From: Labia minor
Lineage: Eukaryota; Arthropoda; Insecta; Dermaptera; Spongiphoridae
Assembly (NCBI GenBank): GCA_963082975.1
Contig: OY720346.1
Location: 71,105,267 to 71,169,266, forward strand
Direction: 5' to 3'
DNA length: 64,000 bases
Below are positions 37,701 through 64,000 of this stretch, one piece after another. Numbering within the stretch: the first letter of the stretch is position 1; each line of letters starts with the position of its first letter. The notes below the pieces were generated by a model. The model did not search any database. It was not told the DNA's origin and saw nothing but the letters and a program-made list of their open reading frames with translations. A program made the position numbers and the translations under genes.

Positions 37701-38765
37701 AGATTCGTCCGTAGGTCGGGCACGTGAAGAGCCTTATCCAAAATTACATGTTTTAAATTACCTGAAACTTCTGTCTTGAATTCAGCTTTTCCTTCAGCTA
37801 ATATACTAGTTGATGAATTGTTGGCTAACTTGAGTGTACCATGCTTGGTATTATCAATTTCAACAAATTCATTTATATTCTTACATAAGTGTGAAGAAGC
37901 ACCACTATCTAAACACCATTTCTGTTTTATATTAGTTGAATCGGAGGTGAAAGCTTCATTAGCAATAAGACCAACTTGTTCAGAAGATTTAGCATCCTGT
38001 TGATTTTTATTTTTATATTTATTTTTACACTGTGCAGCTTTATGGCCAATTTCTTTACATGAATTACAACGAAATTTAAATGTACCTTTTCTTTGTTTCT
38101 CATTCGAAGAATTTTCTGAAGCTTGATATCTCTTGAAGAATTTTCTTTTAACAAACATTGCATTGGAATTTGAAATTCGTTCTTCATTCTTGCGTGCTTC
38201 ACTTTCTTCTAAAATTTTAATTTTTAATGTTTCGGGGGTTGGAAGATTGTCACGTGATTCAATCGCGCATCGAAAGTTTTCATAACTTCCAGGTAGACTA
38301 TATAGAAGCATAATAGATAATAAATCTGAGTTGATTTCTACTTCCATATCTATCAACTTATCAACTGCATCGAAAAATCTGTTGAGATGATTCTTAATAT
38401 CTTCGCCCTGTTCCATTTTAGTAAGAGTCAATTGTTTCAAAAGTGTTGCTTTTCTTGCGGGACCTTTTGATTGATAAATTGATTCTAATTTTTGCCAAAC
38501 TTCGTAAGAGGATTCGCAATTTTTTATTTGTTTAAGTTCGGAGGGGCTAATGCATAAAATAATGTCTGATCTTGCCTTTCTGTCGTTTTTAATCCATTCT
38601 GTAACTGCAGACGTAGAAGCGGCATCGGAGGCAGTCGCAACGGGTTTTTTTAATTTCACCAATCACGTATGACCATTCATCATTTTTGATAAGTAGGGCC
38701 TGCATTTGCATCTTCCATGTATCATAATTGTCTTTGTTAAGAGTTTCGATTTTACAAAAATTCAT
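34754..38765 (-). CDS. copia Gag-Pol polyprotein, one frame break near the N-terminus
   Basis: The main open frame (34754-38662, 1302 codons) encodes, with residue numbers from 38662: a copia-type Gag, a CCHC zinc knuckle (C199-C202-H207-C212), an aspartic protease DSGAS at 252-256, integrase HHCC (H387, H392, C420, C423) and D450/D513/E549 with the usual 35-residue spacing, RT with D875 and YVDD at 985-988, and RNase H with D1151, E1194 and D1228. All catalytic residues are present. The first codon of that open stretch is TTG, so it is not the real start. The ATG at 38765 opens a copia-Gag-like N-terminus in another frame, and the frames meet at a run of seven T (38645-38651; A7 in sense). 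One base too many there would explain the break; it may be real or an assembly error. Between integrase and RT, residues 726-744 hold two AT-hook-like cores (RGRPR and GRPKK). Confidence 0.95.
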
Positions 38766-39172: not shown

Positions 39173-39177
39173 TTTTA

Positions 39178-42100
39178 CGGTAAATATAAAAAATGAAATT
39201 TTTTTTAAATAAATAATAAATTCGTTTATTTTACATATTAAAAATTTTAAAAAAATATATTATTGATATTTCTGATGAATAATTATTTTTTTTATGCCGA
39301 AAACGGAGAATCATCCTAGGATGACCTTTCATATTTTTTACCTAAATATAAAAAATTTAATTTTTTTAAATAGATAATAAATTCGTTCATTTTACATCAT
39401 AAAAATATTAAAAAAATATATTATTGATATTTCTGATGAATAATTATGTTTTTATGCCGAAAACGGAAGGTCAGCCTACGATGACCTTTCATAATTTTTA
39501 CGGTAAAATTAAAAAATGAAATTTTTTTTAAATAAATAATAAATTCGATCATTTTACATCATAAAAATATTAAAAAAATATATTATTGATATTTCTGATG
39601 AATAATTATTTTTTATGGCGAAAACGGAGGGTCATCCTAGGAAGACCTTTAATAATTTTTACTGTAAATATAAAATATGAAATTTTTTGTAATAATAAAT
39701 TCGTTTATTTTACATCATAAAATTATTAAAAAAATATATTATTGATATTTCTGATGAATAATTATTTTTTTATGCCGAAAACGGAGGGTCATCCTAGGAT
39801 GACCTTTCATAATTTTTACGCTAAATATAAAAAATGAAATTTTTTTAAATAGATAATAAATTCATTCATTTTACATCATAAAAATATTAAAAAAATATAT
39901 TATTGATATTTCTGATGAATAATTATTTTTTTATTCTGAAAACGGAGGGTAATCCTACGATGTCCTTTCATAATTTTTACGGTAAAATTAAAAAATGAAT
40001 TTTATTTAAATAAATAATAAACAGGTTCATTTTACATCATAAAAATATTAAAAAAATATATTATTGATATTTCTGATGAATAATTATTTTTTTATGCCGA
40101 AAACATAGGGTCATCCTAGGATGACCTTTCATAATTTTTACGGTAAAATTAGAAAATGAAATTTTTTGTAAATAAATAATAAATTCGATCATTTTACATC
40201 ATAAAAATATTAAAAAAATATATTATTGATATTTCTGATGAATAATTATTTTTTATGCCGAAAACCGAGGGTCATCCTAGGATGACCTTTCATAATTTTT
40301 ACGGTAAAATTAAAAAATGAAATTTTTGGAAATAAATAATAAATTCGTTCATTTTACATCATAAAAATATTAAAAAAATATATTATTGATATTTCTGATG
40401 AATAATTATTTTTTTATGCCGAAAACGGAGGGTCATCCTAGGATGACCTTTCATAATTTTTACGCTAAATATAAAAAATGAAATTTTTTTAAATAGATAA
40501 TAAATTCGTTCATTTTACATCATAAAAATATTAAAAAAATATATTATTGATATTTCTGATAAATAATTATTTTTTTATGCCGAAAACATAGGGTCATCCT
40601 AGGATGACCTTTCATAATTTTTACGGTAAAATTAAAAAATGAAATTTTTTGTAAATAAATAATAAATTCGTTCATTTTACATCATAAAAATATTAAAAAA
40701 ATATATTATTGATATTTCTGATGAATAATTATTTTTTTATGGAGAAAACGGAGGGTCATCCTAGGATGACCTTTCATAATTTTTATGGTAAAATTAAAAA
40801 ATGAAATTTTTTGTAAATAAATAATAAATTCGATCATTTTACATCATGAAAATATTAAAAAAATATATTATTGATATTTCTGATGAATAATTATTTTTTT
40901 ATTCTGAAAACGGAGGGTAATCCTACGATGTCCTTTCATAATTTTTACGGTAAAATTAGAAAATGAAATTTTTTGTAAATAAATAATAAATTCGATCATT
41001 TTACATCATAAAAATATTAAAAAAATATATTATTGATATTTCTGATGAATAATTATTTTTTATGCCGAAAACCGAGGGTCATCCTAGGATGACCTTTCAT
41101 AATTTTTACGGTAAAATTAAAAAATGAAATTTTTGGAAATAAATAATAAATTCGTTCATTTTACATCATAAAAATATTAAAAAAATATATTATTGATATT
41201 TCTGATGAATAATTATTTTTTTATGCCGAAAACGGAGGGTCATCCTAGGATGACCTTTCATAATTTTTACGGTAAAACTATAAAATGAAATTTTTTTTAA
41301 ATAAATAATAAATTCGTTCATTTTACATATTAAAAATATTAAAAAAATATATTATTGATATTTCTGATGAATAATTTTTTTTTATGCCGAAAACGGAGGG
41401 TCATCCTAGGATGACCTTTCATAATTTTTACGGTAAATATAAAAAATGAAATTTTTTTTAAATAAATAATAAATTCGTTTATTTTACATATTAAAAATTT
41501 TAAAAAAATATATTATTGATATTTCTGATGAATAATTATTTTTTTTATGCCGAAAACGGAGAATCATCCTAGGATGACCTTTCATATTTTTTACCTAAAT
41601 ATAAAAAATTTAATTTTTTTAAATAGATAATAAATTCGTTCATTTTACATCATAAAAATATTAAAAAAATATATTATTGATATTTCTGATGAATAATTAT
41701 GTTTTTATGCCGAAAACGGAGGGTCATCCTAGGATGACCTTTCATAATTTTTACGCTAAATATAAAAAATGAAATTTTTTTAAATAGATAATAAATTCAT
41801 TCATTTTACATCATAAAAATATTAAAAAAATATATTATTGATATTTCTGATGAATAATTATTTTTTTATGCCGAAAACATAGGGTCATCCTAGGATGACC
41901 TTTCATAATTTTTACGGTAAAATTAGAAAATGAAATTTTTTGTAAATAAATAATAAATTCGATCATTTTACATCATAAAAATATTAAAAAAATATATTAT
42001 TGATATTTCTGATGAATAATTATTTTTTATGCCGAAAACCGAGGGTCATCCTAGGATGACCTTTCATAATTTTTACGGTAAAATTAAAAAATGAAATTTT

Positions 42101-43211
42101 TGGAAATAAATAATAAATTCGTTCATTTTACATCATAAAAATATTAAAAAAATATATTATTGATATTTCTGATGAATAATTATTTTTTTATGCCGAAAAC
42201 GGAGGGTCATCCTAGGATGACCTTTCATAATTTTTACGCTAAATATAAAAAATGAAATTTTTTTAAATAGATAATAAATTCGTTCATTTTACATCATAAA
42301 AATATTAAAAAAATATATTATTGATATTTCTGATGAATAATTATTTTTTTATGCCGAAAACATAGGGTCATCCTAGGATGACCTTTCATAATTTTTACGG
42401 TAAAATTAAAAAATGAAATTTTTTGTAAATAAATAATAAATTCGTTCATTTTACATCATAAAAATATTAAAAAGATATATTATTGATATTTCTGATGAAT
42501 AATTATTTTTTTATGCCGAAAACGGAGGTTCAACCTACGATGACCTTTCATAATTTTTACGGTACAATTAAAAAATGAAATTTTTTGTAAATAAATAATA
42601 AATTCGATCATTTTACATCATAAATATATTAAAAAAATATATTATTGATATTTCTGATGAATAATTATTTTTTTATTCTGAAAACGGAGGGTAATCCTAC
42701 GATGTCCTTTCATAATTTTTACGGTAAATATAAAAAATGAAATTTTTTTTAAATAAATAATAAATTCGTTCATTATACATCATAAAAATATTAAAAAAAT
42801 ATATTATTGATATTTCTGATGAATAATTATTTTTTTATGCCGAAAACGGAGAGTCATCATAGGATGACCTTTCATAATTTTTACGGTAAAATTAAAAAAT
42901 GAAATTTTTTTTAAATAAATAATAAATTCGTTCATTATACATATTTAAAATATTACAAAAATATATTATTGATATTTCTATAAAAAATTATTTTTTTATG
43001 CCGAAAACGGAGGGTCATCCTAGGATGACCTTGCATAATTTTTACGCTAAATATAAAAAATGAAATTTTTTAAAATAAATAATAAATTCGTTCATTTTAC
43101 ATATTAAAAATATTAAAAAAATATATTATTGATATTTCTGATTAATAATTTTTTTTTATGCCGAAAACGGAGGGTCATCCTAGGATGACCTTTCATAATT
43201 TTTACGGTAAA
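39178..43211. repeat. 162-bp satellite array, block 2 (between the two LTR elements)
   Basis: Same satellite, same orientation, about 25 units, continuing the monomer broken by the copia insertion. Units around 41370-41430 are a near-identical uninterrupted counterpart of the monomer pair into which the copia element inserted, and so act as a paralogous empty site. No gene is visible. Confidence 0.96.
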
Positions 43212-44115
43212 TGTAACGTGCCGCGTACTTACTTGCACCAATGCTAGAAAGAAGGAACGAGATCATGCCACCTATATACGACGAATGTGTCAATTGTTTA
43301 TTAAAAACATCATTTAATTTAATTCAAATATAATTTATTTAATTTAGTTACAATTATTAATTTTATATTAATCCAGTTAATTATAATTTATATTATTTAA
43401 TTTAATTATTCAATCAATTTTACATTAATTCTTTTAATTATAACTTATTTAATTCAACTTGTTTATTTAATTAATTTTACATTAATTCATTTAATCATAA
43501 TTTATATTATTTAATTTATTTATTCAATCAATTTTACATTAATTCTTTCGATTATAACTTATTTAATTCAACTTGCTTATTTAATTAATTTTATATTAAT
43601 TCATTTAATTATAATTCATATTATTTACTTTATTTATTCAATCAATTTTACATTAACTTATTTAATATATCTTATTCAAATTAATTCATTTATTTACTCA
43701 ATTTCATACGAATTTATTCAAATGCATTTGATGTAATTAAATTTGCTTTACTCACACTCTCCTGGCCAGGAACACATATTCACTAAACAGATCAATATTA
43801 ACACAAACATTTTATAATTATCGATAATTCATTCACTTCGCCTCTGATGTACTATCTCAGCTCGCCAGCGCAACTGTGTCCTCCCTCTCCTCTCGGCCTT
43901 CGTTCACATCACCTTCCGCTATCCACTCCGTCGGGCTCCCCACCTCCTCCTCCATCTCTTATCACCTATCTCGCTTCCACTTACATGCATTTTTCCTTAA
44001 CTTATTTCTATTATTTCTATTATTTCTATTATGAGAATTGCCAGCTTGTGAAAAAAATACATTCTCTAGGGGCCCTTAATGGGTGAACAGCGATATATAT
44101 TCCTAATATATTACA
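43212..44115 (-). repeat. gypsy-like element 3' LTR
   Basis: 904 bp, TGTAAC...ATTACA, with 5-bp inverted termini. The left half holds an AT-rich internal tandem repeat (CAATCAATTTTACATTAA at about 43411, 43525 and 43639, period 114 bp). The right half is a GC-richer stretch near 43850-43980. A short open frame at 43847-44086 is identical in both LTRs and has no coding character, so it is not called as a gene. Confidence 0.95.
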
Positions 44116-44129
44116 CTCCCCTACCCTTT
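44116..44129 (-). other. gypsy-like element polypurine tract
   Basis: Sense AAAGGGTAGGGGAG lies directly against the TGTAAT start of the 3' LTR, as expected for the plus-strand primer. Confidence 0.82.
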
Positions 44130-44135
44130 AAAAAA

Positions 44136-44169
44136 GATTGTTTCGGTAAAGATTCTTACCGAAACAATC
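44136..44169 (-). promoter_or_regulatory. long hairpin in the element's 3' untranslated region
   Basis: A perfect 14-bp inverted repeat (44136-44149 and 44156-44169) encloses a 6-nt loop. Beyond it a G-U pair and four A-U pairs could extend the stem. It begins 4 nt after the env stop codon and fills nearly all the space to the polypurine tract. A role in RNA export, stability or packaging is possible but not shown by sequence. Confidence 0.7.
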
Positions 44170-44173
44170 CTTT

Positions 44174-45971
44174 TCAACAGTTCGACCCCTCCTCTGTTTT
44201 GTCTATGTCCACATCACTTCCCAGTTGATTTTGCAGCTCCTCGGCCTCCTTCTTTCTGCGTGCGCACTTCTTCCACCAAAGATACCCCACTAGTCCACAT
44301 AGACTCACTAAAACTGTTCCACCACCGGTTCCGCCAGCGATAAGATGTTGTTTCCTTTTGCTCTGTATCAACCTCGCCTCCTCTCGCAACCTGGATAATG
44401 GAACACTCATCGAGGTCCTTCCCAACTCCGCTCTTATCGACTCCAAACTTTTCAGTCCCTCCGCCAGTATCGTGTTCTCCTTACACGATGTCTCTGTTAT
44501 TAGGGGTTCTTCTTTCTGGCCGGTAAATATCGCTGGAGTTGTTATCATGATTCTCGATTGACCCGCGCTCCTAGACATCAACAGATGTTGATTTGTATGT
44601 AGCTGACATCCCTCCGGAATGGTAACGATGCCTTGTCGATGTAGTTGAATATCATCGAACCTAGGTTCGCTACCGGTACGGCAACTTTGTCGGGCCACTT
44701 GAGGTCGTGATATACTATAATACCAATGGGAACCAGAATATGATGGTTCCCAAAAATCAGTAACCGCCCCTAATAACACTTCCCATGAGCAGTAACTGTC
44801 TAGATGCTCCGCCTGTTTGAAGAAGAGGGCGCTGACACAACTGAGTTGGGATCGGGCTACGAGTGGAATAGGCTGTTGACACACCATAGGCTCCCGTCCT
44901 CGGCAGTTGTCCACATATCTATGTTCTAGCGTGGTATATTTTTGGTGGTCATGCGTTACTAGGATCCACGGGGAAATTTTCACTAACTTGGTCCTCACTC
45001 CCCCCCGAGCTGTAGGCACCACATGAACGAAATATATTGTTCCTGACTGGGATACTGTCTTCAACGGAAGGGAGATCACGAAACGGATAGCGTCCCTGAC
45101 ACTATACACTTTCACTAATGAGGTGTCATAGTACTTATAAATAAATCGTAATTCTAGCGGGGTCAGCCATTCTTGTCCTTCGGGGAGTTTCTTATTTATA
45201 TCTATCATTAATTCTAATAACATTTTTGGGTTGATCAATCGCGCATCGAGGCGTCCCGCTGCCGCCGATTGAACAATCCCGAGGATATCCTCTAACCAGT
45301 TTCGAACTGACGTCACTGCTTGCCCCAGGCGTCGTGTCTTAGTCATTAATTCTAACGCTTCTTGAAAAAATTTTTCGGCTGCGTTTTGCCGTCCAAGTGT
45401 CGAATTAAAATTTTGGTCTATCAAAGTGGCTAATTCCAATAATGTTCTAGCATGTTGTTTAATCAAGTCGAAATTTTGATTAGTTTTATGGTCGAGTTGG
45501 TCTAATGCTGTAATTTGATCATCGAAGTAATGACTCATTTGTTCATTAACTTCATTTAAATTTTGTAATCTGGTATTCAATTCCACCAGATCTTCATTAT
45601 CTAAAGTTCCGAAAATGAATTTTAAAACGTGCCCCCCCCGCGTCCACCAGACCACGTCGACTTCGCGCCGGGGGTAGCATTTCACTCAAATGTGAAATAA
45701 TCCCCTCCGTCATCTCGAAACTGGTCTTAATATAGGACATATCCTCCTTAAAATCTATTGTCTTCAAAGGTTCTCCTTCCAAGAGAGCGTATCGGTCATC
45801 CTGTAATTTCTCCAGAGAATCCCTGATGACCGATACCTTCCCTTGAATCTCTTTCACGTCGACTTCCGTTACAATCCGCCACTCATCTCCCGTAATTATC
45901 ACATCGTCGACTGGTTCAAAATAGACTCCCAGTGGCATTATCTCCTCCCTCTCCCTCGCCTGCTTCCCCAT
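44174..45971 (-). CDS. env: env, baculovirus-F-like envelope glycoprotein, frame broken at a G8 run
   Basis: Two overlapping frames make one gene. Positions 45971-45597 (124 codons from an ATG) hold the N-terminal part, ending with a basic RSRR cleavage motif followed by GLVDAGG. The second frame (45685-44174) holds the fusion-peptide-proximal segment, a long heptad-rich helical region (about residues 30-130), a cysteine-bearing ectodomain (C261, C269, C283, C299, C335, C360, C401), a predicted membrane span at about 448-470 and a basic tail. This layout matches insect errantivirus Env and baculovirus F proteins. The frames part at a run of eight G in sense (45632-45639); one base gained or lost there explains the break. 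No clear signal peptide follows the ATG at 45971. Because a splice acceptor lies just upstream, an earlier exon may supply it. As assembled, full-length Env cannot be made. Confidence 0.85.
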
Positions 45972-45988
45972 CGCATCGTTAGTTTGGC

Positions 45989-46013
45989 CTGTGAGAGAAG
46001 AAACAAAGAAACA
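45989..46013 (-). promoter_or_regulatory. env splice acceptor with polypyrimidine tract
   Basis: In sense a pyrimidine-rich run (GTTTCTTTGTTTCTTCTCTC) is followed by ACAG, with the predicted cut after 45989. It sits just after the stop of the preceding frame (46014) and 18 nt before the env ATG. Env of insect gypsy-type elements is made from a spliced RNA, so position and sequence both fit. The donor was not identified with confidence. Confidence 0.72.
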
Positions 46014-46874
46014 TTACTCCTTTTTTTTATGGAAATTCCAAATGGTTCTCTTTTTAGGACGCCCTACCCCTCTCTTTTTTGGTGGGACTCCAACGGGTGG
46101 TTTACTCGTATTAGGGTTCTTTGTCGCCCCGGCTGTTGTGGGAGGGCTTGTCCCCGGGCTACTGGTACTGGGTTGGGCCTCCACGCTACCCCTAACCGGG
46201 ACATCTCTATTGGGTGGTGTGTGAGGAGGGTGTGCATTCTGGTCCCGAGTGTTGGGTGATTTCTCCGGGCTAGCCGGGGAATCTATATCCTCCCACCCCT
46301 CCTCCCTTTGACTTTCTTCATCCTGCGAAGCTTGTCCTGTTTCCCCTTGAGTAACGTGCTCACCGGTCTCTGTCTCCTGTCGCCCAGACTCTGGATCTCT
46401 TCTGTCAATCCTGAGGGATTCCTCTTCCCTTAGTGCTTCTGCGATGTCTATTTCATCTTGGCTGTCTAAATTTATTACAGGGGGTGTTTCCTTCTCCCCT
46501 TCTGGCTCGATCTCCTCTATCTCGCTGGGTCTTGCGGAATAATCTAGTTGTCCTACTCCATTCCAATTGGGCTGGGAGTCATTCTGTTCTCGCCACGGAC
46601 TCAATGAAATGTCCTCTTCCCCTGACCACACATCGTCATCCGAATCGCTCTCCCAAATCCGGTTTTTCTCCTCTTCATCATCAGTTGGCGTTGGGGTTCC
46701 AATGGCCGCTGGTGTGTATACGTGTACTCTCACCGGGTAGTCGGGGGTTAGCTCTTTTAGCCACTTCTTGACTTGTACCCATTTGAGGCCGTCCATTCCG
46801 CATCCTAAGCGCGGAACCGCCAATGCTGGAATTCCTACCTCGGTCGCTTTCAGTAGAAGGTTCTTGATTGTCAT
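46014..46874 (-). CDS. accessory frame: C-terminal half of a macrodomain, acidic disordered region, AT-hook-like tail
   Basis: The frame is open from about 46937; the first ATG is at 46874, just after the pol stop (46879-46877), and an upstream GTG at 46880 shares a base pattern GTGA with that stop. Counting from 46880, residues 1-56 are the distal half of a TARG1/OARD1-like macrodomain, with PRLGCGMDGL at 23-32 (the family's catalytic Asp corresponds to D30) and a final beta strand RVHVY. Residues about 60-265 are rich in Asp, Glu, Ser, Pro and Gln and look disordered. The end is strongly basic, with an AT-hook-like KKRGVGRPKKR at 268-278 (46047-46079). It could be made as a continuation of Gag-Pol through a second -1 shift, by reinitiation, or from a spliced RNA. 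I know no standard gypsy protein with this layout. Confidence 0.75.
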   Translation of the reverse strand: MTIKNLLLKATEVGIPALAVPRLGCGMDGLKWVQVKKWLKELTPDYPVRVHVYTPAAIGTPTPTDDEEEKNRIWESDSDDDVWSGEEDISLSPWREQNDSQPNWNGVGQLDYSARPSEIEEIEPEGEKETPPVINLDSQDEIDIAEALREEESLRIDRRDPESGRQETETGEHVTQGETGQASQDEESQREEGWEDIDSPASPEKSPNTRDQNAHPPHTPPNRDVPVRGSVEAQPSTSSPGTSPPTTAGATKNPNTSKPPVGVPPKKRGVGRPKKRTIWNFHKKKE

Positions 46875-46876
46875 TT

Positions 46877-49800
46877 TCACGTTTTCAGGGCGCGGCTTGT
46901 CACTCGCTTTTGTTTCGTGACACAGTGAAGTATTACTCTATCTGGGTGGTATTGCACTAGGATCTCTCCGATGGTTGGTTCTGGGATCTTTTCGCAAGGG
47001 TGCCTCGGATAGGTGTCTCGTATAGTTTTTGCAACACCTTGGGACATGCGTAAGTCGGCCGATACGCAATGAGCTAGGGCGTAATTTTTGGGTGCCATCA
47101 ACATATCTCCCGTGTGTTCATATACACGGTTCACTCCGCGGCGTTCTATATTGGCTGGTTTCAAACGATTCACATGTATGTTGACAATCTTAGTGGGGCT
47201 CCACCACACTCCATATACCACTTCGGAATTTTTTGTCGCTATTGTGTAGGGGCCCTTCCAAGGCTTATAAAATTTCCGAGCTTCTGACTCTTTCAGGACG
47301 GGGTTGTATACATATACTTCATCCCCTACCTCGAACCTTCGGAATTTTCGATGTTTATTAGCCTGTTTCCTGCTCGCCTGTAACCTGGCTTCCGACTGAT
47401 TTATCGACCGTTGTTGTAGATGTTCTATCCGGTCACACAAGTCGTTTAGATATGCCCATCTATCTGGCTCTTCTTGATGATGTTGATTTTTTACGGTGAT
47501 ATTAATGTCTGTTTCCCGGCCGAATGCTAGCACATTCGGCGAAAACCCAGTGCTGGAATGGGGTCCGCTCCGATAAGCCATTAACGCGTATGGCAACCAA
47601 ACATCCCAGTCTTTACCGTCTGTTCTCACCCACGGTCGAAGCATCTCATTTATTGTTTTGTGTACCCTTTCCACTCGTCCATTCGATTCTGGATGATAGG
47701 CTGTTGTTTGTACCTTTTTTATTCCTAAACGTTGACATAGTCCCAGGAATAGTTTAGAGGTGAAATTTCTTCCTTGATCGGTTAAGATGATTTCTGGGAT
47801 CCCATGCCGGCTTATTACTTCTTCCGTGAGCGCACGGATCACTCTGGCCGCTGTTTGGTTCGGCATGGGTATCGCTTCCAAGTACCGGGAGTAGTGATCT
47901 AGTACCGTCAAAAGGTATCTATTACCTCGGGTGGACTTCGGGAATTCCACGACATCTAGTGCTATCATTTGGAAGGGCCTTCTGGGGATCTCATGTGGTT
48001 GAACGGGAGCTCGAAGTCCAGTTGGCGACTTCATCTGGGTACATATACTACACTGTTTCACCCAGGACTCTACGTCCCGTTCCATTCCCTCCCAAAAATA
48101 TTGTCGCTGGATTCGTGATAAGGTTCCCTGTACCCCTCTATGCCCCGCCGTGGGTCTATCATGATTCTCTTCCAATATCATGGGCACCTTTTCTCGGGGT
48201 ACCATTAGACGGGTTTGGTGATCATCTACTACGTACAAACACCCATCGGATCTTGCTTGGGCTTTGCCGCTCCGTGCCCACCGCTGACAGTCCTCATCTT
48301 GATCTTGTGATTCGCGCCATTCTTTTTCGGTCGCTGTGGTTCTCAATAAAGTTCGAATCGTATGCACCTTCGACTCAGGGCCTTCCTCACTAACTTTCAC
48401 CCTACTGAGAGCATCCGCATTCCGATGTAACTTCCCCGGTCGATGTTCTACTGTATAGTCATATTCCGCCAGTCGTAGCGCCCATCGTGTCAACCGCTGT
48501 GACGGATCATGCAGACTTAACATCCATTTCAAGGCCGCGTGGTCAGTTATCAGTTGGAATTTCCTCCCATATAGGTAACACCGAAATTGTTGCGTCGCCC
48601 ACACTACAGCAAGTAGTTCTTTCTCCGTTACTGTGTAGTTACTTTCGGCCTTGTTCAACGTTCGACTAGCGTAAGCAATCGGCCTTTCATATCCGTCTCG
48701 ACGCTGTGATAACACTGCGCCTAAAGCCTCGTTCGAGGCGTCTGTGGCCAAGATAAACGGCAGTGTGAAATCTGGATAAACGAGTACGGTGTCACTACAC
48801 AGGAATTTTGTGAGAGAAAGAAACGCTTGTTCCTGGTCCTTCCCCCATTGGAACTTCTGGTCTTTCTTCGTGAGGACCGTCAATGGCTTCGCAATATTAG
48901 CATACTCAGGGATAAACCTCCTGTACCACCCTGAGAGTCCCAGAAACTGTTGTATCTCTTTTACGTTTTTCGGTTGTGGGTAGTTATTAATCGCTTCCAC
49001 TGTTTTTGGATCGGGTCGGACTCCATCTTTCCCCACCCGATGCCCCAGGTACCCAACTTCTCCCACCGCGAAATGACATTTCTCTAGTTGTATTTGCAGT
49101 CTTGCCTGTCGGAGGCATTCGAATACGTTTCGCAACCTTCTTTGATGTTCTGAAAATGTTGTACCAAATACTACCACATCATCTAGATATACGAAACAGT
49201 CGCTTCCTTTAATTCCAGCCAACACCCGATCCATCAAGCGTTGGAAAGTAGCTGGAGCCCCGGCTAAACCGAACGGCATTCTTGCGTACTCAAAATGCCC
49301 CATAAAAGTAGTGAATGCGGTTTTCTCTCTATCTTCTGGAGCTACCTGAATTTGGTGGTACCCACTTGCCAGGTCTAGGGTAGTGAAATATTGTGCATTT
49401 CCTAAGGATTCTAGCGTCTCCGTGATATTAGGTATCGGATACACCGGAATCTTCGTTACACTGTTCAGAGCTCGGTAGTCAGTACAAAATCGATATTTAA
49501 CCCTCTCGTCTGTACTCTTTTTGGGTACTAGTACTACGGGTGCTGACCATGGCGAATCTGATTCTACAATCACTCCTTCTTCTAGCATCTTCCCGATCTG
49601 TTTTTCTACTTCGGGTCTCATCGCATGCGGCACTCTATAGGGTCGTTTAAAGATGGGAGCTGATCCTTCAGTGACAATTTTATGCTTCACACCTAGTGCA
49701 CAACCCAATCCCGTTGTTCCCTCTTCATACATCAATGAAGCATATTCGTTCAATAGCTCGAACATCTGATGTTGGTGATTTTTAGGCAGGTGGGTCAACT

Positions 49801-50983
49801 TTTCCTTGAACTTAGATACCCATTGATGTTTGGTCTCTTGTTCAACCACCTGCACTCGGCAAATACAACTTTGGTCTAATATTGGTATCGTGCTGGCTTT
49901 GGCAAGTTGTTGGCGACGATCTATCACTGCCTCCCTACTAGATAAGTTTATTACTCTGACCGGTACACTTCCTTTCTCGACTCTCACACAAGTCCGCCCT
50001 ACCCGTAACACTGGTTGCGCCAATATAACCGGTTCCACTACCATTTCTGAGCCATCTTGTGCATTATCTACCTCAGCCCAGACCACTACCTCGGACCACG
50101 CCGGAATTACTTTCCTCTGTTTTGCTCTCACGACCTCCTCTGGCAATCCTTCTATCCCGGTGACAGGCGGAATGCCACTAATGGCTTCAAATTCCGTGTC
50201 CTCTTTCCCAGTGCTAATTACCCTTGCTCTCACGACCTCCTCTGGCCCTCCTTCTATCCCGGTGACAGGCGGAATGCCACTAATGGCTTCAAATTCCGTG
50301 TCATCTTTTCCAGTGCCAATTACTCGTGCTCTCACGACCTCCTCTTGCACTTCTTCTATCCCGGTGACAGGCGGAATGCCACTAATGGCTCCAAATTCCG
50401 TGTCATCAGTTTCAGTGCTAACTACTCCTCTAGGTCGTTCCAGGGGAATAATCTCCAAATTACTCCCATCCCCAACACCCCTTTTCCCCTTCCCGTTACC
50501 TCGTGCTGTGCCGTTCCAACGGCACTCCCTTTTCTGCACATCAATCACCGCTCCCAAAGCGGTCAACACATCCATTCCCAGGAGCCCATCTCCCGCTATT
50601 CGTACATCGCAAATAATGAATGGATGCATGATTCTTCTCTTCGTCACCAGTATCGGAAGCGTTTGTTGACCACTAATGGGCAACAGATCTCCCGTAACTC
50701 CACACGCATTTCGCGGATATCCCATTACAGGGATATCTGGAATAGGAGCTTTTAAGATCGACACTTCCGACCCCGTGTCCACTAGCATCTCCAATTCCCG
50801 TCCCCCTATACTCAGTCTCACTCTAGTAGCCTTATCCGCATTGGTGTTGATTGCGGTTACCAGGAGAGATCCGAATCTCTTCGGACTCACTCTTGGGGCG
50901 GAGGGAGTCCGAACTCTTTTGGGGCCACTTGCGTATGGATGTTTTCTTCGGCCACACACTTTACCTGGGGAGGTCGGGGGCAC
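46877..50983 (-). CDS. pol: Pol: protease, RT, RNase H, integrase and the N-terminal half of a macrodomain
   Basis: A 1368-codon frame that opens at a GTG inside the end of gag, so it is best read as the -1 frameshift extension of Gag joined at 50917-50923. Residues counted from 50983: protease DTGS 69-72; three 34-residue tandem repeats at 193-287; RT with D537 and YLDD 599-602; RNase H with D748, E789 and D814; integrase zinc motif H941, H948, C978, C981 and catalytic D1010, D1069, E1105 (35-residue spacing); GPY motif at about 1244-1246. From 1286 to the end the sequence resembles the first half of TARG1/OARD1-type macrodomains: a GD at 1292-1293, an AHC at 1304-1306, and a VTK whose K1357 matches the family's catalytic Lys. 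The frame then stops, and the rest of the fold lies in the -1 frame downstream. Confidence 0.93.
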   Translation of the reverse strand: MPPTSPGKVCGRRKHPYASGPKRVRTPSAPRVSPKRFGSLLVTAINTNADKATRVRLSIGGRELEMLVDTGSEVSILKAPIPDIPVMGYPRNACGVTGDLLPISGQQTLPILVTKRRIMHPFIICDVRIAGDGLLGMDVLTALGAVIDVQKRECRWNGTARGNGKGKRGVGDGSNLEIIPLERPRGVVSTETDDTEFGAISGIPPVTGIEEVQEEVVRARVIGTGKDDTEFEAISGIPPVTGIEGGPEEVVRARVISTGKEDTEFEAISGIPPVTGIEGLPEEVVRAKQRKVIPAWSEVVVWAEVDNAQDGSEMVVEPVILAQPVLRVGRTCVRVEKGSVPVRVINLSSREAVIDRRQQLAKASTIPILDQSCICRVQVVEQETKHQWVSKFKEKLTHLPKNHQHQMFELLNEYASLMYEEGTTGLGCALGVKHKIVTEGSAPIFKRPYRVPHAMRPEVEKQIGKMLEEGVIVESDSPWSAPVVLVPKKSTDERVKYRFCTDYRALNSVTKIPVYPIPNITETLESLGNAQYFTTLDLASGYHQIQVAPEDREKTAFTTFMGHFEYARMPFGLAGAPATFQRLMDRVLAGIKGSDCFVYLDDVVVFGTTFSEHQRRLRNVFECLRQARLQIQLEKCHFAVGEVGYLGHRVGKDGVRPDPKTVEAINNYPQPKNVKEIQQFLGLSGWYRRFIPEYANIAKPLTVLTKKDQKFQWGKDQEQAFLSLTKFLCSDTVLVYPDFTLPFILATDASNEALGAVLSQRRDGYERPIAYASRTLNKAESNYTVTEKELLAVVWATQQFRCYLYGRKFQLITDHAALKWMLSLHDPSQRLTRWALRLAEYDYTVEHRPGKLHRNADALSRVKVSEEGPESKVHTIRTLLRTTATEKEWRESQDQDEDCQRWARSGKAQARSDGCLYVVDDHQTRLMVPREKVPMILEENHDRPTAGHRGVQGTLSRIQRQYFWEGMERDVESWVKQCSICTQMKSPTGLRAPVQPHEIPRRPFQMIALDVVEFPKSTRGNRYLLTVLDHYSRYLEAIPMPNQTAARVIRALTEEVISRHGIPEIILTDQGRNFTSKLFLGLCQRLGIKKVQTTAYHPESNGRVERVHKTINEMLRPWVRTDGKDWDVWLPYALMAYRSGPHSSTGFSPNVLAFGRETDINITVKNQHHQEEPDRWAYLNDLCDRIEHLQQRSINQSEARLQASRKQANKHRKFRRFEVGDEVYVYNPVLKESEARKFYKPWKGPYTIATKNSEVVYGVWWSPTKIVNIHVNRLKPANIERRGVNRVYEHTGDMLMAPKNYALAHCVSADLRMSQGVAKTIRDTYPRHPCEKIPEPTIGEILVQYHPDRVILHCVTKQKRVTSRALKT
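50880..50923 (-). promoter_or_regulatory. gag-pol -1 ribosomal frameshift signal
   Basis: In sense the heptamer C CCA AAA (50923-50917) lies in the gag frame as CCA AAA, the canonical X XXY YYZ form. Three bases later comes a perfect 9-bp stem (50913-50905 with 50888-50880) around a 16-nt loop. The pol frame is -1 relative to gag (start coordinates 0 versus 1 modulo 3), as this signal would produce. The gag stop codon lies in the stem-loop. The spacer is shorter than the usual 5-9 nt, so the first stem pairs may be open on the ribosome, or a pseudoknot may form. Confidence 0.85.
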
Positions 50984-51810
50984 TGCCTTATAAAGTGCTC
51001 CCTACTCCCGCACCTATAGCATCCTTCACGAGGTTTGATGTTCCCTCTTTTCTCTGTACCCCCAATGGTACTATTCGGTTCCCTCTTTATGGGGCACATC
51101 CGAGCCATGTGTCCCTCCCGATTACAATTGTAACACCTGCCCCTAATCGCAGGGTTACTCGTGAACCGTGTGTTGTCTCTACGTCTCCATGGGTAGGTAA
51201 AGCGGGTTTCCGGGACATTCCTTCCCTCTTTTTCCCACCGTTGTGCAATTTGTAAGGCTCCTTCCTCGGTCGTGGGGGCTGCTAATCGGGCTTGTCTACC
51301 CGGTTCGCCTCTGAGCCCTTCTAGAAACCGAGCCAATAGGGTAATTCCTGTACCCGCCCAATCTATCCCGGCCATTGCATCTCGTAATCGATCTAGATAA
51401 TCCGCTGCACTCTCTTGCGGAGTTTGACCCATAGTCAGGACCATTCTCATCCTTTGGGTGGCCGTGTCTTCCGGCTTGAACCTCGCTCTCAGCTGTTCCT
51501 TCACCCCTTCCCAAGTGATATCTCCTGGTAAATTTCTGACGACTCTCAACGCCGTTCCCTCCAGCTTCCATTCCAAGACCTCCCTCCTCTGGTCCTCGGG
51601 TATGTTACCCATTTTGGCCAATTGCTCAAATTTATTGAGGAATAGGTCAATCTGTCCTGTCCCCGTCCAGGGCGACATCCCCTCCACTATTCCCCAATTA
51701 GGGTCTCGATTGACGCGTACCTCCACGGGACCAGCCGCCCCAGTCAGATTTGATAACTGGGCCTGCAATTGTCCTAATTGTTGTTCCAAATTATGGATCT
51801 GTTCCTCCAT
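50887..51810 (-). CDS. gag: Gag with two CCHC zinc knuckles
   Basis: 307 codons from the ATG at 51810. The frame is open further to a GTG at 51888, but that is not an ATG and the stretch before 51810 has no Gag features. Residues 1-25 form a likely coiled coil (MEEQIHNLEQQLGQLQAQL). Residues about 45-180 resemble the retrotransposon Gag capsid region, including a WEGVKEQLRARF segment. Two CX2CX4HX4C knuckles lie at 226-239 (CYNCNREGHMARMC) and 264-277 (CYRCGSREHFIRQC). Gag assembles the particle and its knuckles bind genomic RNA. It overlaps pol and carries the slippery heptamer 11 codons before its stop. No break is visible. Confidence 0.92.
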   Translation of the reverse strand: MEEQIHNLEQQLGQLQAQLSNLTGAAGPVEVRVNRDPNWGIVEGMSPWTGTGQIDLFLNKFEQLAKMGNIPEDQRREVLEWKLEGTALRVVRNLPGDITWEGVKEQLRARFKPEDTATQRMRMVLTMGQTPQESAADYLDRLRDAMAGIDWAGTGITLLARFLEGLRGEPGRQARLAAPTTEEGALQIAQRWEKEGRNVPETRFTYPWRRRDNTRFTSNPAIRGRCYNCNREGHMARMCPIKREPNSTIGGTEKRGNIKPREGCYRCGSREHFIRQCPRPPQVKCVAEENIHTQVAPKEFGLPPPQE

Positions 51811-52052
51811 GTTTCGTGGGGGTGCTTTCAACTTCGATGTTGAGCAAACACCAGGTCTAGGGTTTAATTTTATCGTACTCTCCCTCACTTAAATACTCCC
51901 AAATTTCCGTATCTCTGCTCTCAGAATTTTACTTTATCTTTGGTTTGAAAGGAATTAAACTATTAACAAAATATTCCCATTTTAATTAAATTTTATCGAT
52001 GCAATCCTCAAAATTTTGCTTAATTATTTTACTCTCTACCCCTAAACCCTCA

Positions 52053-52070
52053 ACCCCACACCTGACACCA
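52053..52070 (-). other. gypsy-like element primer-binding site
   Basis: Sense TGGTGTCAGGTGTGGGG starts 2 nt after the 5' LTR. It begins with TGG, complementary to a tRNA CCA end. The implied tRNA end, ...CACCTGACACCA, resembles some eukaryotic leucine tRNAs; the exact tRNA cannot be settled here. Confidence 0.7.
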
Positions 52071-52072
52071 GT

Positions 52073-52976
52073 TGTAACGTGCCGCGTACTTACTTGCACC
52101 AATGCTAGAAAGAAGGAACGAGATCATGCCACCTATATACGACGAATGTGTCAATTGTTTATTAAAAACATCATTTAATTTAATTCAAATATAATTTATT
52201 TAATTTAGTTACAATTATTAATTTTATATTAATCCAGTTAATTATAATTTATATTATTTAATTTAATTATTCAATCAATTTTACATTAATTCTTTTAATT
52301 ATAACTTATTTAATTCAACTTGTTTATTTAATTAATTTTACATTAATTCATTTAATCATAATTTATATTATTTAATTTATTTATTCAATCAATTTTACAT
52401 TAATTCTTTCGATTATAACTTATTTAATTCAACTTGCTTATTTAATTAATTTTATATTAATTCATTTAATTATAATTCATATTATTTACTTTATTTATTC
52501 AATCAATTTTACATTAACTTATTTAATATATCTTATTCAAATTAATTCATTTATTTACTCAATTTCATACGAATTTATTCAAATGCATTTGATGTAATTA
52601 AATTTGCTTTACTCACACTCTCCTGGCCAGGAACACATATTCACTAAACAGATCAATATTAACACAAACATTTTATAATTATCGATAATTCATTCACTTC
52701 GCCTCTGATGTACTATCTCAGCTCGCCAGCGCAACTGTGTCCTCCCTCTCCTCTCGGCCTTCGTTCACATCACCTTCCGCTATCCACTCCGTCGGGCTCC
52801 CCACCTCCTCCTCCATCTCTTATCACCTATCTCGCTTCCACTTACATGCATTTTTCCTTAACTTATTTCTATTATTTCTATTATTTCTATTATGAGAATT
52901 GCCAGCTTGTGAAAAAAATACATTCTCTAGGGGCCCTTAATGGGTGAACAGCGATATATATTCCTAATATATTACA
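52073..52976 (-). repeat. gypsy-like element 5' LTR
   Basis: 904 bp, reading as identical to the 3' copy throughout the parts compared, including the short spurious frame at 52708-52947. It directly precedes (in sense) the primer-binding site. An identical LTR pair means very recent insertion. Confidence 0.95.
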
Positions 52977-52981
52977 GTAAA

Positions 52982-55900
52982 TATAAAAAATGAAATTTTT
53001 TTTAAATAAATAATAAATTCGTTTATTTTACATATTAAAAATTTCAAAAGAATATATTATTGATATTTCTGATGAATAATTATTTTTTTTATGCCGAAAA
53101 CGGAGGGTCATCTTAGGATGACCTTTCATAATTTTTACGCTAAATATAAAAAATTTAATTTTTTTAAATAGATAATAAATTCGTTCATTTTACATCATAA
53201 AAATATTAAAAAAATATATTATTGATATTTCTGATGAATAATTATTTTTTATGCCGAAAACGGAGGGTCATCCTAGGATGACATTTCATAATTTTTACGC
53301 TAAATATATAAAATGAAATTTTTTTAAATAGATAATAAATTCGTTCATTTTACATCATAAAAATATTAAAAAAATATATTATTGATATTTCTGATGAATA
53401 ATTATTTTTTTATGCCGAAAACATAGGGTCATCCTAGGATGACCTTTCATAATTTTTACGGTAAAATTAAAAAATGAAATTTTTTGTAAATAAATAATAA
53501 ATTCGTTCATTTTACATCATAAAAATATTAAAAAGATATATTATTGATATTTCTGATGAATAATTATTTTTTTATGCCGAAAACGGGGGGTCATCCTACG
53601 ATGGCCTTTCATAATTTTTACGGTAAATTTAAAAAATGAATTTTTTTTAAATAAATAATAAATTCGTTCATTTTACATCATAAAAATATTAAAAAGATAT
53701 ATTATTGATATTTCTGATGAATAATTATTTTTTTATGCCGAAAACGGAGGGTCATCCTAGGATGACCTTTCATAATTTTTACGGTAAAACTATAAAATGA
53801 AATTTTTTTTAAATAAATAATAAATTCGTTCATTTTACATATTAAAAATATTAAAAAAATATATTATTGATATTTCTGATGAATAATTATTTTTTTATGC
53901 CGAAAACGGAGGGTCATCCTAGGATGACCTTTCATAATTTTTACGCTAAATATAAAAAATTTAATTTTTTTAAATAGATAATAAATTCGTTCATTTTACA
54001 TATTAAAAATATTAAAAAAATATATTATTGATATTTCTGATGAATAATTTTTTTTTATGCCGAAAACGAAGAGTCATCCTAGGATGACCTTTCATATTTT
54101 TTACGGTAAATATAAAAAATGAAATTTTTTTTAAATAAATAATAAATTCGTTTATTTTACATATTAAAAATTTTAAAAAAATATATTATTGATATTTCTG
54201 ATGAATAATTATTTTTTTTATGCCGAAAACGGAGGGTCATCTTAGGATGACCTTTCATAATTTTTACGGTAAATATAAAATATGAAATTTTTTTAATAAT
54301 AAATTTGTTTATTTTACATCATAAAATTATTAAAAAAATATATTATTGATATTTCTGATGAATAATTATTTTTTTATGCCGAAAACGGAGGGTCATCCTA
54401 GGATGACCTTTCATAATTTTTACGCCAAATATAAAAAATGAAATTTTTTTAAATAGATAATAAATTCGTTCATTTTACATCATAAAAATATTAAAAAAAT
54501 ATATTATTGATATTTCTGATGAATAATTATTTTTTATGCCGAAAACGGAGGGTCATCCTACGTTGACCATTCATAAATTTTACGATAAAATTAAAAAATT
54601 CGTTCATTTTACATATTAAAAATATTAAAAAAATAAATTATTGATAATTAAAAAATGAATTTTTTTTTTAATAAATAATAAATTCATTCATTTTACATAT
54701 TAAAAATATTAAAAAAATATATTATTGATATTTCTGATGAATAATTATTTTTTATGCCGAAAACGGAGGGTCATCCTACGTTGACCATTCATAAATTTTA
54801 CGATAAAATTAAAAAATTCGTTCATTTTACATATTAAAAATATTAAAAAAATAAATTATTGATAATTAAAAAATGAATTTTTTTTTTAATAAATAATAAA
54901 TTCATTCATTTTACATCATAAAAATATTAAAAAAATATATTATTGATATTTCTGATGAATAATTATTTTTTATGCCGAAAACGGAGGGTCATCCTAGGAT
55001 GACCTTTCATAATTTTTACGCTAAATATATAAAATGAATTTTTTTTAAATAGATAATAAATTCGTTCATTTTACATCATAAAAATATTAAAAAAATATAT
55101 TATTGATATTTCTGATGAATAATTATTTTTTTATGCCGAAAACATAGGGTCATCCTAGGATGACCTTTCATAATTTTTACGGTAAAATTAAAAAATGAAA
55201 TTTTTTGTAAATAAATAATAAATTCGTTCATTTTACATCATAAAAATATTAAAAAAATATATTATTGATATTTCTGATGAATAATTATTTTTTTATGCCG
55301 AAAACGGAGGGTCATCCTAGGATGACCTTTCATAATTTTTACGCCAAATATAAAAAATGAAATTTTTTTAAATAGATAATAAATTCGTTCATTTTACATC
55401 ATAAAAATATTAAAAAAATATATTATTGATATTTCTGATGAATAATTATTTTTTTATGCCGAAAACATAGGGTCATCCTAGGATGACCTTTCATAATTTT
55501 TACGGTAAAATTAAAAAATGAAATTTTTTTTAAATAAATAATAAATTCGATCATTTTACATCATAAAAATATTAAAAAAATATATTATTGATATTTCTGA
55601 TGAATAATTATTTTTTATGGCGAAAACGGAGGGTCATCCTAGGATGACCTTTCATAATTTTTACGGTAAATATAAAATATGAAATTTTTTTTAATAATAA
55701 ATTCGTTTATTTTACATCATAAAATTATTAAAAAAATATATTATTGATATTTCTGATGAATAATTATTTTTTTATGCCGAAAACGGAGGGTCATCCTAGG
55801 ATGACCTTTCATAATTTTTACGCTAAATATAAAAAATGAAATTTTTTTAAATAGATAATAAATTCGTTCATTTTACATCATAAAAATATTAAAAAAATAT

Positions 55901-56005
55901 ATTATTGATATTTCTGATGAATAATTATTTTTTTATGCCGAAAACATAGGGTCATCCTAGGATGACCTTTCATAATTTTTACGGTAAAATTAAAAAATGA
56001 AATTT
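52982..56005. repeat. 162-bp satellite array, block 3 (right edge of the array)
   Basis: Same satellite and orientation. Units near this edge are more irregular: short internal deletions (for example near 54290), GGTCATCTTAGG variants, and a tandem pair of enlarged 218-bp units at 54541-54976. The array stops within a unit at about 56005 and single-copy-like DNA begins. Greater divergence at the border is what unequal exchange predicts for the edge of a satellite. Confidence 0.95.
54541..54976. repeat. tandem pair of enlarged 218-bp satellite units
   Basis: Two adjacent near-identical units begin at 54541 and 54759, period 218 bp. Each contains GGTCATCCTACGTTGACC in place of the palindrome and a partial second copy of the ATTCGTTCATTTTACATATTA part of the unit. 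They look like a standard unit that gained about 56 bp by internal duplication and was then itself duplicated. Confidence 0.85.
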
Positions 56006-56840
56006 TCATTTTCGGGGTTTATTCATTCTCCATCAATGCCCAGATTATCCGACAAAAATTTTGAAAACTTGGTTTATTTGAAAGGTAATCATCATTACAA
56101 AGTATATAATACTCAATATACAATATGTCTAATATTCTTTGTTTGCTTTCAATTAGTCCATTATTTATTTTATGATTATATTTATTTATTTATATTTATT
56201 ATTATAAATTTACAATAAAATATTAGTATGTAGTATTTTCGTATTATTTACAAAATTCCCTCATGAATAACCTTTTCTCATTTTTATAAATAAATGTTCT
56301 TTAATATCATGATTAATTTTATTGTTTTCGATTTTCCAAAGTATTCTTCAATATAAGTTTAGTTGCCTAACTAAATTTATTTAGGGTTCTAGAATTACCC
56401 CACCAAAAATTATTTTAAAATCAAAAATCGCTGTCGTCATAAGGCCGCCGCAAAATATTCAATAAAACAATTAGGCAACTTTCTTGGAATTTTCAATTCT
56501 CGAATTTTCTGGACAACAATCGTGTATGCTGACAAAATTGCAAGAATTTACCGATTTTTGTAGTCTTTCCAAATGCATAGCTTTCTCCATTTTTTTTGTT
56601 TTGACCCAAAAAAACAACCTTCGCCCGCTAGATCCAACACTGATAATTACTTATAGTTATTAAACTTATACTTGGTTTTCATTAATTGTTTTAATGATTT
56701 CAAATTATCTCTTTTTTTTAATGGACTACAATAAATCCTAATATGTTATATTTCTATAAATCTTTCTATAGATCATAGGTTCCCAAACTTTTTTGTGTCG
56801 TGAACCCCTTGCCATGATTTTCGGTTACGAGGACAAAACC
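56006..56840. other. AT-rich single-copy-like DNA beside the satellite
   Basis: No convincing gene. Short open frames (for example 55997-56218) overlap the satellite end and lack coding character. A segment near 56778-56815 (GGTTCCCAAACTTTTTTGTG) resembles ends of degenerate hAT-type transposons; this is only a resemblance. Confidence 0.5.
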
Positions 56841-58289: not shown

Positions 58290-59738
58290 CTAGAGTATCA
58301 TAGTCAGGAAAAAAGGTCCATTAAAGAAATCATGGAAATATTGAACGGCAGTCGATTCAATGATTAGGGATAATTTTTGGAAAGGAACCCATTGGTTTTT
58401 TAATGAAAGTAATATAGGCTTTTGATAAAAATCTTCTAATAGATAGTTTGTGATAATGACAATAAATATCATAATAGGAGACATTTAATTTTAATAACGT
58501 ATCCATGGATGGATATCTCCCTGGAGGATTTAAATTCATATATAAACGAGATTGGAAAAGTGAAATTATAATAACAGAGGTTAGGATAATAATACCAGAT
58601 AAAATTCTGGATCTATTCCGGTGTGGTGAGTTGATCCAAGGGACAACGTAAGTGAGAAAGAGAGAAAGAATATCAGTGAGAGATTGTAGGAAAGTGTTGG
58701 GTGGGAGTGGTTTAGGGTTATTGTTGAGTTTTAGAAGAAACCTACAGTCATAGTGACGTGAAGTCTTTTGTTGTGACGATGTGATTTTATTTATAAGTTG
58801 CCAAAATATGGCACAAGTAATCCATGCAAATACCACAATAAAAGCCATATTCTCCAGTTGAAACATCGTGGCAATGCCTTCCAAGAGGGTTGAAAAGGTG
58901 CTCTATGAACAACTACACAAATTGATTGTGTTGTCATCGTAGGAATATAATTATCATCAAAATGAGAGTTTAAAAAATGATCATAATCTTCAACAAGCGA
59001 TAAATCATAAACTGGCGACATTTCTAAACTTGCATTATAATATTGAAGAATGGATTTACGAATAGGTATAAATTTACTATCAACTTTCGGTACATTTAAC
59101 AGAGATGATATAAATTTATCATTTATTCTGAAAGGCCAGTGATGAAAATTAGGTGGATGATTAAAATAGCCACTTTGGAGTAATTGAATTTGTTTGAATT
59201 CGAGCTTGTATGGTTCTGTTAATTCTTGCACCCACAATTCATAAATGGGTAAACTATTTAATATATATTCACAAAAGATTAGTGTTCGGTAGAAACGAAA
59301 AAATATAGTATATTCATATTTTAAATATTTCTTGACCAAAAGCTTACAAGTGTTGTTTTGATTTTCAGGCAAATCACGAAAATCCAAATATAGAATGATA
59401 TTCCGTTGATTGGTGCGAATGTTTATGAATTGACTTATAATTAAATGTTCATCAATGTTGCCTACAATTAACATATTCTGAACTGGATATTTGCATTTTC
59501 TACTGAAATAGATTACATTTAAATGGTTACTCAACTCAGGTAACAAAGAATTGTTATACGGATATTCATTGGCCGTTAAGATACATGTGACACCATCTTT
59601 GTTAAAATGTGCCAGGCCATAATTAATTAAATTATTAAAATTTCTTGTGGAGACATTCAATACTAATTCCAATGGTACCACCGATTTCAAATGAAGAAGA
59701 ATTGATATGAAACATAAAATAATGCATTTCATTTCCAT
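58290..59738 (-). pseudogene. divergent ionotropic receptor (IR) pseudogene
   Basis: Three overlapping frames form one damaged gene. From the ATG at 59738 (315 codons to 58791) come a signal peptide (about residues 1-22), a poorly conserved extracellular domain and VVVHRAPFQPSWK (about 275-287), typical of the segment before the first membrane helix of insect chemosensory ionotropic receptors. The second frame (58884-58357) carries on with a membrane helix, a pore-region-like stretch, a second helix (ILSGIIILTSVIIISL) and a SMDTLLKL ligand-domain motif. The third frame (58484-58290) overlaps its end. At least two frame changes, at 58791-58884 and 58357-58484, and no recognisable final helix indicate a pseudogene. 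Unmodelled short introns could explain a frame change, but the frames overlap without visible splice sites. Confidence 0.72.
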
Positions 59739-63808: not shown

Positions 63809-64000
63809 CTTAGGAACACAATTGGTGCTACCGCTATACACTTGTATGCTCTGTGGTATAAGATGCACTGATGCACAGACTATCTTTATGCACCCACTCC
63901 GGGTTAAATTTTGAAGCAAAGTTTTAGCACATCGCGCCACCTGGTACTATGAGTCATATACTAATTTTATAAAAAACGATATAAAAAAGCGGGCTTATGT
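63809..64000. other. upstream region of the leucine-rich gene
   Basis: Somewhat richer in G and C than the downstream side. It could hold the 5' untranslated region or a short upstream exon; no clear TATA box or splice site can be assigned. Confidence 0.35.

Follow-up and report, generated by a model that had tools for sequence, protein, structure and literature searches.

The window analysed is a 64000-nucleotide stretch of the Labia minor genome (GenBank accession number OY720346.1; coordinates 71105267 to 71169266), and its minus strand carries a 9765 bp long terminal repeat (LTR) element at positions 43212–52976 (Table 1). A Pfam scan of the element detected gag, protease, reverse transcriptase (RT), RNase H, integrase and a Baculovirus F-like envelope, and on the basis of these Gag, Pol and envelope domains together with the LTR features the element is of an env-bearing Ty3/gypsy type. 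The Pfam coordinates place Pol in the protease–RT–RNase H–integrase order of Ty3/gypsy elements (Metaviridae), and the LTRs, of the form TG..CA, are flanked on both sides by the short target-site duplication GTAAA. As in errantivirus-type elements, a Baculovirus F-like env ORF lies downstream of pol, here split over two frames. Following the integrase, the end of the pol frame and the start of the next open frame encode the two halves of a domain assigned to the TARG1/OARD1 class of macrodomains.

That these two frames together read as a macrodomain of the TARG1 group had been proposed in a sequence-only reading of the window. The 90 amino acid (aa) piece from pol and the 60 aa piece from the next frame were searched separately against solved structures, and each matched human OARD1 (C6orf130), with E values, from comparison with solved structures only, of 3.1e-6 and 4e-5, respectively; the top five rows were OARD1 entries in both cases. 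Pfam Macro, the check put forward with the reading, gave no match to the pol piece and a weak one, below the cut-off, to the next-frame piece (E = 0.0031; 17.9 bits against a cut-off of 22), and the assignment is independently backed by the relative P0001 (names of this form denote proteins among the best 120 of 3096 Pol relatives, ranked by similarity to the query), which encodes the whole domain in one frame. TARG1/OARD1 was the best match of this domain among solved structures (E = 1.4e-25), with E = 1.5e-31 for the domain of P0113. In line with the comparison of structures that had also been suggested, predicted models of the P0001 and P0113 domains, rather than of the split domain in the window, adopted a macrodomain fold with TARG1 as the nearest structure. 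Window sequence, in-frame relatives and modelled relatives all confirm that the domain is of the TARG1/OARD1 group and that it is fused to a Pol of gypsy type.

Two other explanations of the frames were considered and rejected. Chance resemblance to a macrodomain was ruled out by the two independent OARD1 matches and the in-frame relatives. The next frame was also ruled out as a separate downstream gene, as it holds the second half of the domain and a tail common to P0001 and P0003.

All of the motifs quoted in the earlier reading were present, namely GDML, LAHCVS, RMSQGVA and CVTK in the pol frame and PRLGCGMDGLKW and RVHVYTP in the next frame. The Lys and Asp codons were located as it had claimed, and align with TARG1 positions 84 and 125, which we take to be the catalytic residues. 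The aspartate of the early GD, which corresponds to Asp20 of TARG1, a ligand residue, is also present in the window domain.

Relatives were identified using Pol residues 440–1368 as the query. Among 7976 proteins scored, 3096 were found at E = 1e-10 or better, and the best 120 were taken. Pol relatives surfaced only with this longer query. In the protein collection, none of the 16 candidates for the pol C-terminal region by itself reached E = 0.001, and none of the 1010 candidates for the second ORF by itself reached E = 0.01. Viral contigs scanned with five queries and bacterial and archaeal genome contigs scanned with P0001 yielded no confirmed locus.

Precomputed Pfam Macro matches flagged three of the 120 proteins (P0001, P0113 and P0118). 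A macrodomain profile was seeded with these three and P0003, which was picked by eye (Pfam Macro was silent at E = 0.01), and its first pass detected P0114, P0115, P0110 and P0059 with whole-protein E values of 8.4e-53, 2.2e-48, 1e-35 and 4.5e-31, respectively. An iterated profile gave E values below 1e-50 for these eight carriers and a weak match to P0099 (E = 1.3e-4), with no match at E = 20 for the other 111, but it includes sequences that were scored, so that its values arise partly by construction and the first pass gives a fairer measure of P0114, P0115, P0110 and P0059. Related elements that combine pol with a macrodomain, for which the sequence-only reading had proposed a search, exist, though eight of 120 is not a natural frequency because the list was ranked by similarity to the query. 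Residues 892–1027 of P0099, between RNase H and integrase, form a worn macrodomain remnant and provide an example of decay.

The domain follows the integrase in the window element, P0001 and P0003, is located between RNase H and integrase in P0113, P0114, P0118, P0110 and P0115 (in the last with about 72 additional residues before the integrase), and lies ahead of RT in P0059. Integrase is therefore its neighbour in the window and in seven of the eight relatives. P0003, like P0001, carries the domain in one frame, and P0001 encodes integrase, whole domain, linker and tail in a single open frame with about 60% Pol identity to the window. The acidic linker (22–26% D/E) and GRP..WNF basic tail are common to the window, P0001 and P0003, and the GRP-type and WNF tail was seen in only these two of the best 120 relatives. 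Identity between the window and P0001 was 78% for RT, 77% for RNase H and 57% for integrase, and fell to 26% across 98 linker residues and 41% across 22 tail residues, with the two macrodomain halves at the values given in Table 1. In the nine aligned element sequences, the catalytic-type Lys was found in all and the Asp in eight, so that eight retain both.

The nine carriers fell into three groups in an RT–RNase H tree of 121 sequences. These were the window element with P0001 and P0003 (support 0.965); P0113, P0114 and P0118 (0.999), joined weakly by P0110 (0.513); and P0115 and P0059 with the remnant-bearing P0099 (0.916). A second, more careful tree was built from 64 of the 121 sequences (the nine carriers, P0099 and odd-numbered others). 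It recovered the window/P0001/P0003 group (99/93) and the P0113 group (100/99), with P0110 placed apart but weakly (79/56). As the two trees differ on P0110, the number of gypsy Pol groups that contain carriers is three or four. A single Pol clade for the nine carriers and P0099 was rejected in the approximately unbiased (AU) test (p-AU = 2e-9), a result that applies to Pol and not to the domain. The 64-sequence tree requires five trait changes, of which starred branches force three, and the three may also be read as one gain and two losses.

A tree of the domain itself (eight element domains, human OARD1 and six homologues from phages or plasmids) contained no starred branch, and a single element clade was not rejected (p-AU = 0.19); an earlier LG+G4 tree gave no better resolution. 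A single gain, combined with domain exchange and losses, may also account for the carriers. The placement of P0001 beside a phage homologue (89/91) was not starred, involved a long branch and was given no weight. The domain tree is too weak to discriminate between one shared capture and an origin of the domains in hosts, so that a captured host gene is, as in the wording of the sequence-only reading, a possibility. The other suggestion of that reading, that the domain serves the element, finds only indirect support, in the occurrence in three or four gypsy Pol groups and in the retained Lys and Asp.

The six phage and plasmid homologues (L001–L006) are stand-alone TARG1-like genes of phages and large plasmids, including Bacillus phage G, Lactobacillus phage LP65 and Fusobacterium phage Fnu1, with 29–36% identity to the P0113 domain.

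Further features of the element are listed in Table 1. The LTRs show no difference along their whole length, which points to a recent insertion. Pfam detected two zinc-knuckle stretches in Gag. The two env parts overlap at positions 45600–45685, a segment containing a run of eight G, which is a likely place for a length error, either in the copy or in the assembly. In the protease–RT interval of pol, three tandem 102 bp repeats (positions 50123–50427) encode 34 aa repeats around TEFEAISGIPPVTGIEG..EEVVRA.

Table 1. Features of the macrodomain-bearing LTR element, in window coordinates
Feature	Position	Strand	Details
5' LTR	52073–52976	minus	904 bp; 100% identity to 3' LTR; sense TG start, CA end
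Primer-binding-site-like TGGTGTCAGG... (TGG)	52053–52070	minus	two bases past 5' LTR; from sequence
gag ORF	50890–51888	minus	Pfam Retrotrans_gag E 7.5e-6; CCHC zinc knuckles E 1.9e-11
pol open frame: protease, RT, RNase H, integrase, macrodomain first half	46880–51001	minus	Pfam RVP, RVT_1, RT_RNaseH, Integrase_H2C2, rve
CCCAAAA, canonical -1 heptamer (candidate), gag frame, in gag/pol overlap	50917–50923	minus	sequence scan
TARG1-like macrodomain first half, pol frame, to catalytic-type Lys	46913–47128	minus	OARD1 E 3.1e-6; 53% to P0001 over 68 aa
Lys codon, aligned with TARG1 Lys84	46913–46915	minus	alignment
pol/next-frame overlap, domain switches frame inside	46880–46937	minus	58 bases; no canonical -1 heptamer
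Macrodomain second half, next frame	46710–46913	minus	OARD1 E 4e-5; 44% to P0001 over 64 aa
Asp codon, aligned with TARG1 Asp125, PRLGCGMD loop	46791–46793	minus	alignment
Acidic linker, probably disordered	46128–46709	minus	26% D/E, 8% K/R; composition alike in P0001, P0003
Basic tail ...KKRGVGRPKKRTIWNFHKKKE, AT-hook-like	46017–46127	minus	41% to P0001 over 22 aa; 56% to P0003 over 18 aa
env first part, Baculovirus F-like	45600–46013	minus	Pfam Baculo_F E 0.0071, below cut-off, residues from 45971 on
env second part, other frame, Baculovirus F-like	44177–45685	minus	Pfam Baculo_F E 1e-21
Polypurine tract	44116–44129	minus	adjoins 3' LTR; 14 bases including one T
3' LTR	43212–44115	minus	904 bp; same sequence as 5' LTR
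Target-site duplication GTAAA, copy 1	43207–43211		flank sequence; within 162 bp satellite array
Target-site duplication GTAAA, copy 2	52977–52981		flank sequence

The element sits inside an AT-rich 162 bp satellite array, whose units of 161–162 bp occupy window positions 1–34448, 39173–43211 and 52972–56006, with further periods of 323, 479 and 485 bp and a 218 bp variant at 54432–55034. A second retroelement, with a Copia-type gag-pol ORF of 1302 aa (34757–38662, minus strand; Retrotran_gag_2, rve and RVT_2), adjoins the same array. Two overlapping minus-strand ORFs at 58360–59738 resembled, by eye, a protein of the insect ionotropic-receptor type and had no Pfam match at E = 0.1. A further ORF (62441–63940, minus strand), F-box/LRR-like, gave matches below the cut-off.

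The starting points for an interpretation are the identity of the domain, its fusion to Pol, the in-frame relatives, the retention of catalytic-type residues and the recurrence among gypsy Pol groups. From the sequences we infer enzymatic activity, a target, tethering to the integrase and a benefit to the element, and lean towards the view that the TARG1-class macrodomain in Pol would act as a mono-ADP-ribosyl glycohydrolase, erasing host ADP-ribosylation near the element DNA or integrase and aiding insertion and expression. In this lineage Pol continues past the integrase into a TARG1-class macrodomain, followed by an acidic linker and an AT-hook-like tail. The domain would be made within Gag-Pol and reach the particle together with the integrase. 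In or close to the pre-integration complex, the domain could strip mono-ADP-ribose, added by host enzymes of the PARP or sirtuin type, from the integrase, the element DNA or the chromatin at the nicked insertion site, and an eraser tied to the integrase would work where nicks recruit PARPs. Silencing or DNA-damage signalling may thereby be blunted for long enough to permit insertion and expression.

RNA viruses remove ADP-ribosylation with macrodomains, and a parallel counter-defence can be suggested more tentatively, in which Ty3/gypsy elements repeatedly captured a TARG1-class glycohydrolase beside the integrase because erasure of ADP-ribose at the integration complex, from the integrase, nicked DNA ends or chromatin, defeats PARP-based restriction of LTR elements by the host. 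Retroelement silencing has been linked to ADP-ribosylation in two sources (PMC4695847, PMC7712786); in the former, a review, SIRT6 is described as mono-ADP-ribosylating KAP1, leading to LINE1 repression, and overexpressed TARG1 as moving to DNA-damage sites.

Several findings weigh against an eraser that benefits the element. According to PMC7712786, only five of the eight mobile elements that changed significantly in Drosophila parp-1 mutants were up; ten further elements, nine of them of the gypsy superfamily, were up but not significantly, and its authors caution that effects may be indirect. Between the window and P0001, conservation of the macrodomain (53% and 44%) is below that of RT (78%) or RNase H (77%), though near that of the integrase (57%). 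The Asp is absent in P0059, and P0003 deviates from the PRxGCG loop. Only five of the nine sequences retain the aspartate of the early GD, which P0003, P0113, P0115 and P0110 have lost. Only a remnant of the macrodomain is found in P0099, and the window copy is broken both in the macrodomain and in env.

The main rival to an eraser is a domain that binds ADP-ribose rather than cutting it, such that macrodomain and AT-hook-like tail form a targeting arm of the integrase that directs insertion to chromatin that is ADP-ribosylated or AT-rich, a role that chromodomains have in chromoviruses. In the window, P0001 and P0003 the domain comes immediately after the C-terminal domain of the integrase and is accompanied by a GRP-type basic tail, which is consistent with such an arm, as are the position of this copy in an AT-rich satellite array and the retention of the fold region without the Asp in P0059. 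However, binding alone does not need both the Lys and the Asp, which are kept in eight of nine sequences; in the other carriers, the domain precedes the integrase or RT and the GRP and WNF tail was not seen, and a single insertion site is uninformative on preference. A targeting arm is considered unlikely.

We regard as still less probable that the domain is a passenger in this element, acquired by an ancestor and decaying now that selection has gone. Such decay would account for the frame break in the window copy, the worn state of P0059 and P0099 and an identity lower than that of RT. It fits poorly with a recent insertion marked by identical LTRs, with motifs intact in both halves, with the open frame of P0001, which at about 60% Pol identity still spans the integrase, domain, linker and tail, and with recurrence in three or four groups.

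The frame that holds the second half of the domain is open from 46937 to 46017 at -1 to pol, and its homologous part starts upstream of its own first start codon, inside the overlap with pol. Programmed -1 frameshifting, by which a minority of Pol would carry a complete macrodomain and tail, agrees with this -1 offset, the 58-base overlap and the canonical heptamer at gag/pol, but is highly improbable given that the pol/next-frame overlap contained no canonical X_XXY_YYZ heptamer and only one A-site-only candidate in 66 bases, against six in 117 bases at gag/pol, and that P0001 and P0003 need no shift, with the caveat that the protein database holds single-frame products and would miss shifted relatives. 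The gag/pol heptamer alone proves little, since the 4.1 kb pol ORF has six other canonical heptamers in frame and the env G run has one. The simplest explanation for the split of the domain is a small insertion or deletion, either genuine or introduced in the assembly, and the simplest reading of the element as a whole is that small length changes affect both the pol-macrodomain and env genes, in the copy or in the assembly. As the domain is divided between two frames, this copy probably makes no complete macrodomain.

No Ty3/gypsy element with a macrodomain was found in the parts of the openly licensed literature covered, including those of PMC11642819, PMC4299795 and PMC2774666. The statement in the sequence-only reading that no such gypsy-type element had been described holds to this extent, but a review (PMC4977317) mentions epsilon-like endogenous retroviruses of fish that carry macro-domain ORFs, so that a retroelement with an accessory macrodomain is already known as a kind. 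What appears to be new is the fusion of the macrodomain within a Ty3/gypsy Pol beside the integrase, and its recurrence; the presence of the domain in separate branches of gypsy elements hints that it may serve them as a weapon, directed at silencing by the host or at DNA-damage signalling. A TARG1-class domain in the Pol of several gypsy lineages would be the retroelement-side counterpart of RNA-virus macrodomains, and would offer a direct handle, in one small domain with two catalytic-type residues, on the question of whether LTR elements in invertebrates are restricted by PARPs. Assays for human TARG1 exist.

TARG1/OARD1 (C6orf130), the terminal ADP-ribose protein glycohydrolase, is a stand-alone cellular enzyme, whereas the domain described here is part of a retroelement polyprotein and is split in this copy. 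The fish epsilon-like endogenous retroviruses (Basta et al. 2009, cited in PMC4977317) are similarly retroelements with a macro-domain protein but, as described in that review, carry it as additional ORFs in retrovirus-type elements rather than fused in a Ty3/gypsy Pol. DarG, the DNA ADP-ribosyl glycohydrolase that is the antitoxin of DarTG, is not a match, as P0001, P0113 and P0118 scored 58.4, 46.5 and 54.8 bits against an NCBIfam cut-off of 250. The macrodomains of alphaviruses and rubella virus shared only 9–17% identity among the matches listed, and TARG1 is far closer. The window element resembles the errantivirus-type Ty3/gypsy elements (insect endogenous retroviruses) in its gag, pol (protease–RT–RNase H–integrase), Baculovirus F-like env and LTRs, which are generally known traits of that genus, and differs in the macrodomain, acidic linker and GRP..WNF tail added after the integrase. 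Chromoviruses carry a chromodomain after the integrase and some retroviruses a dUTPase between RNase H and integrase; these are likewise accessory domains beside the integrase in Pol, at the same two positions, which here are occupied by a TARG1-class macrodomain.

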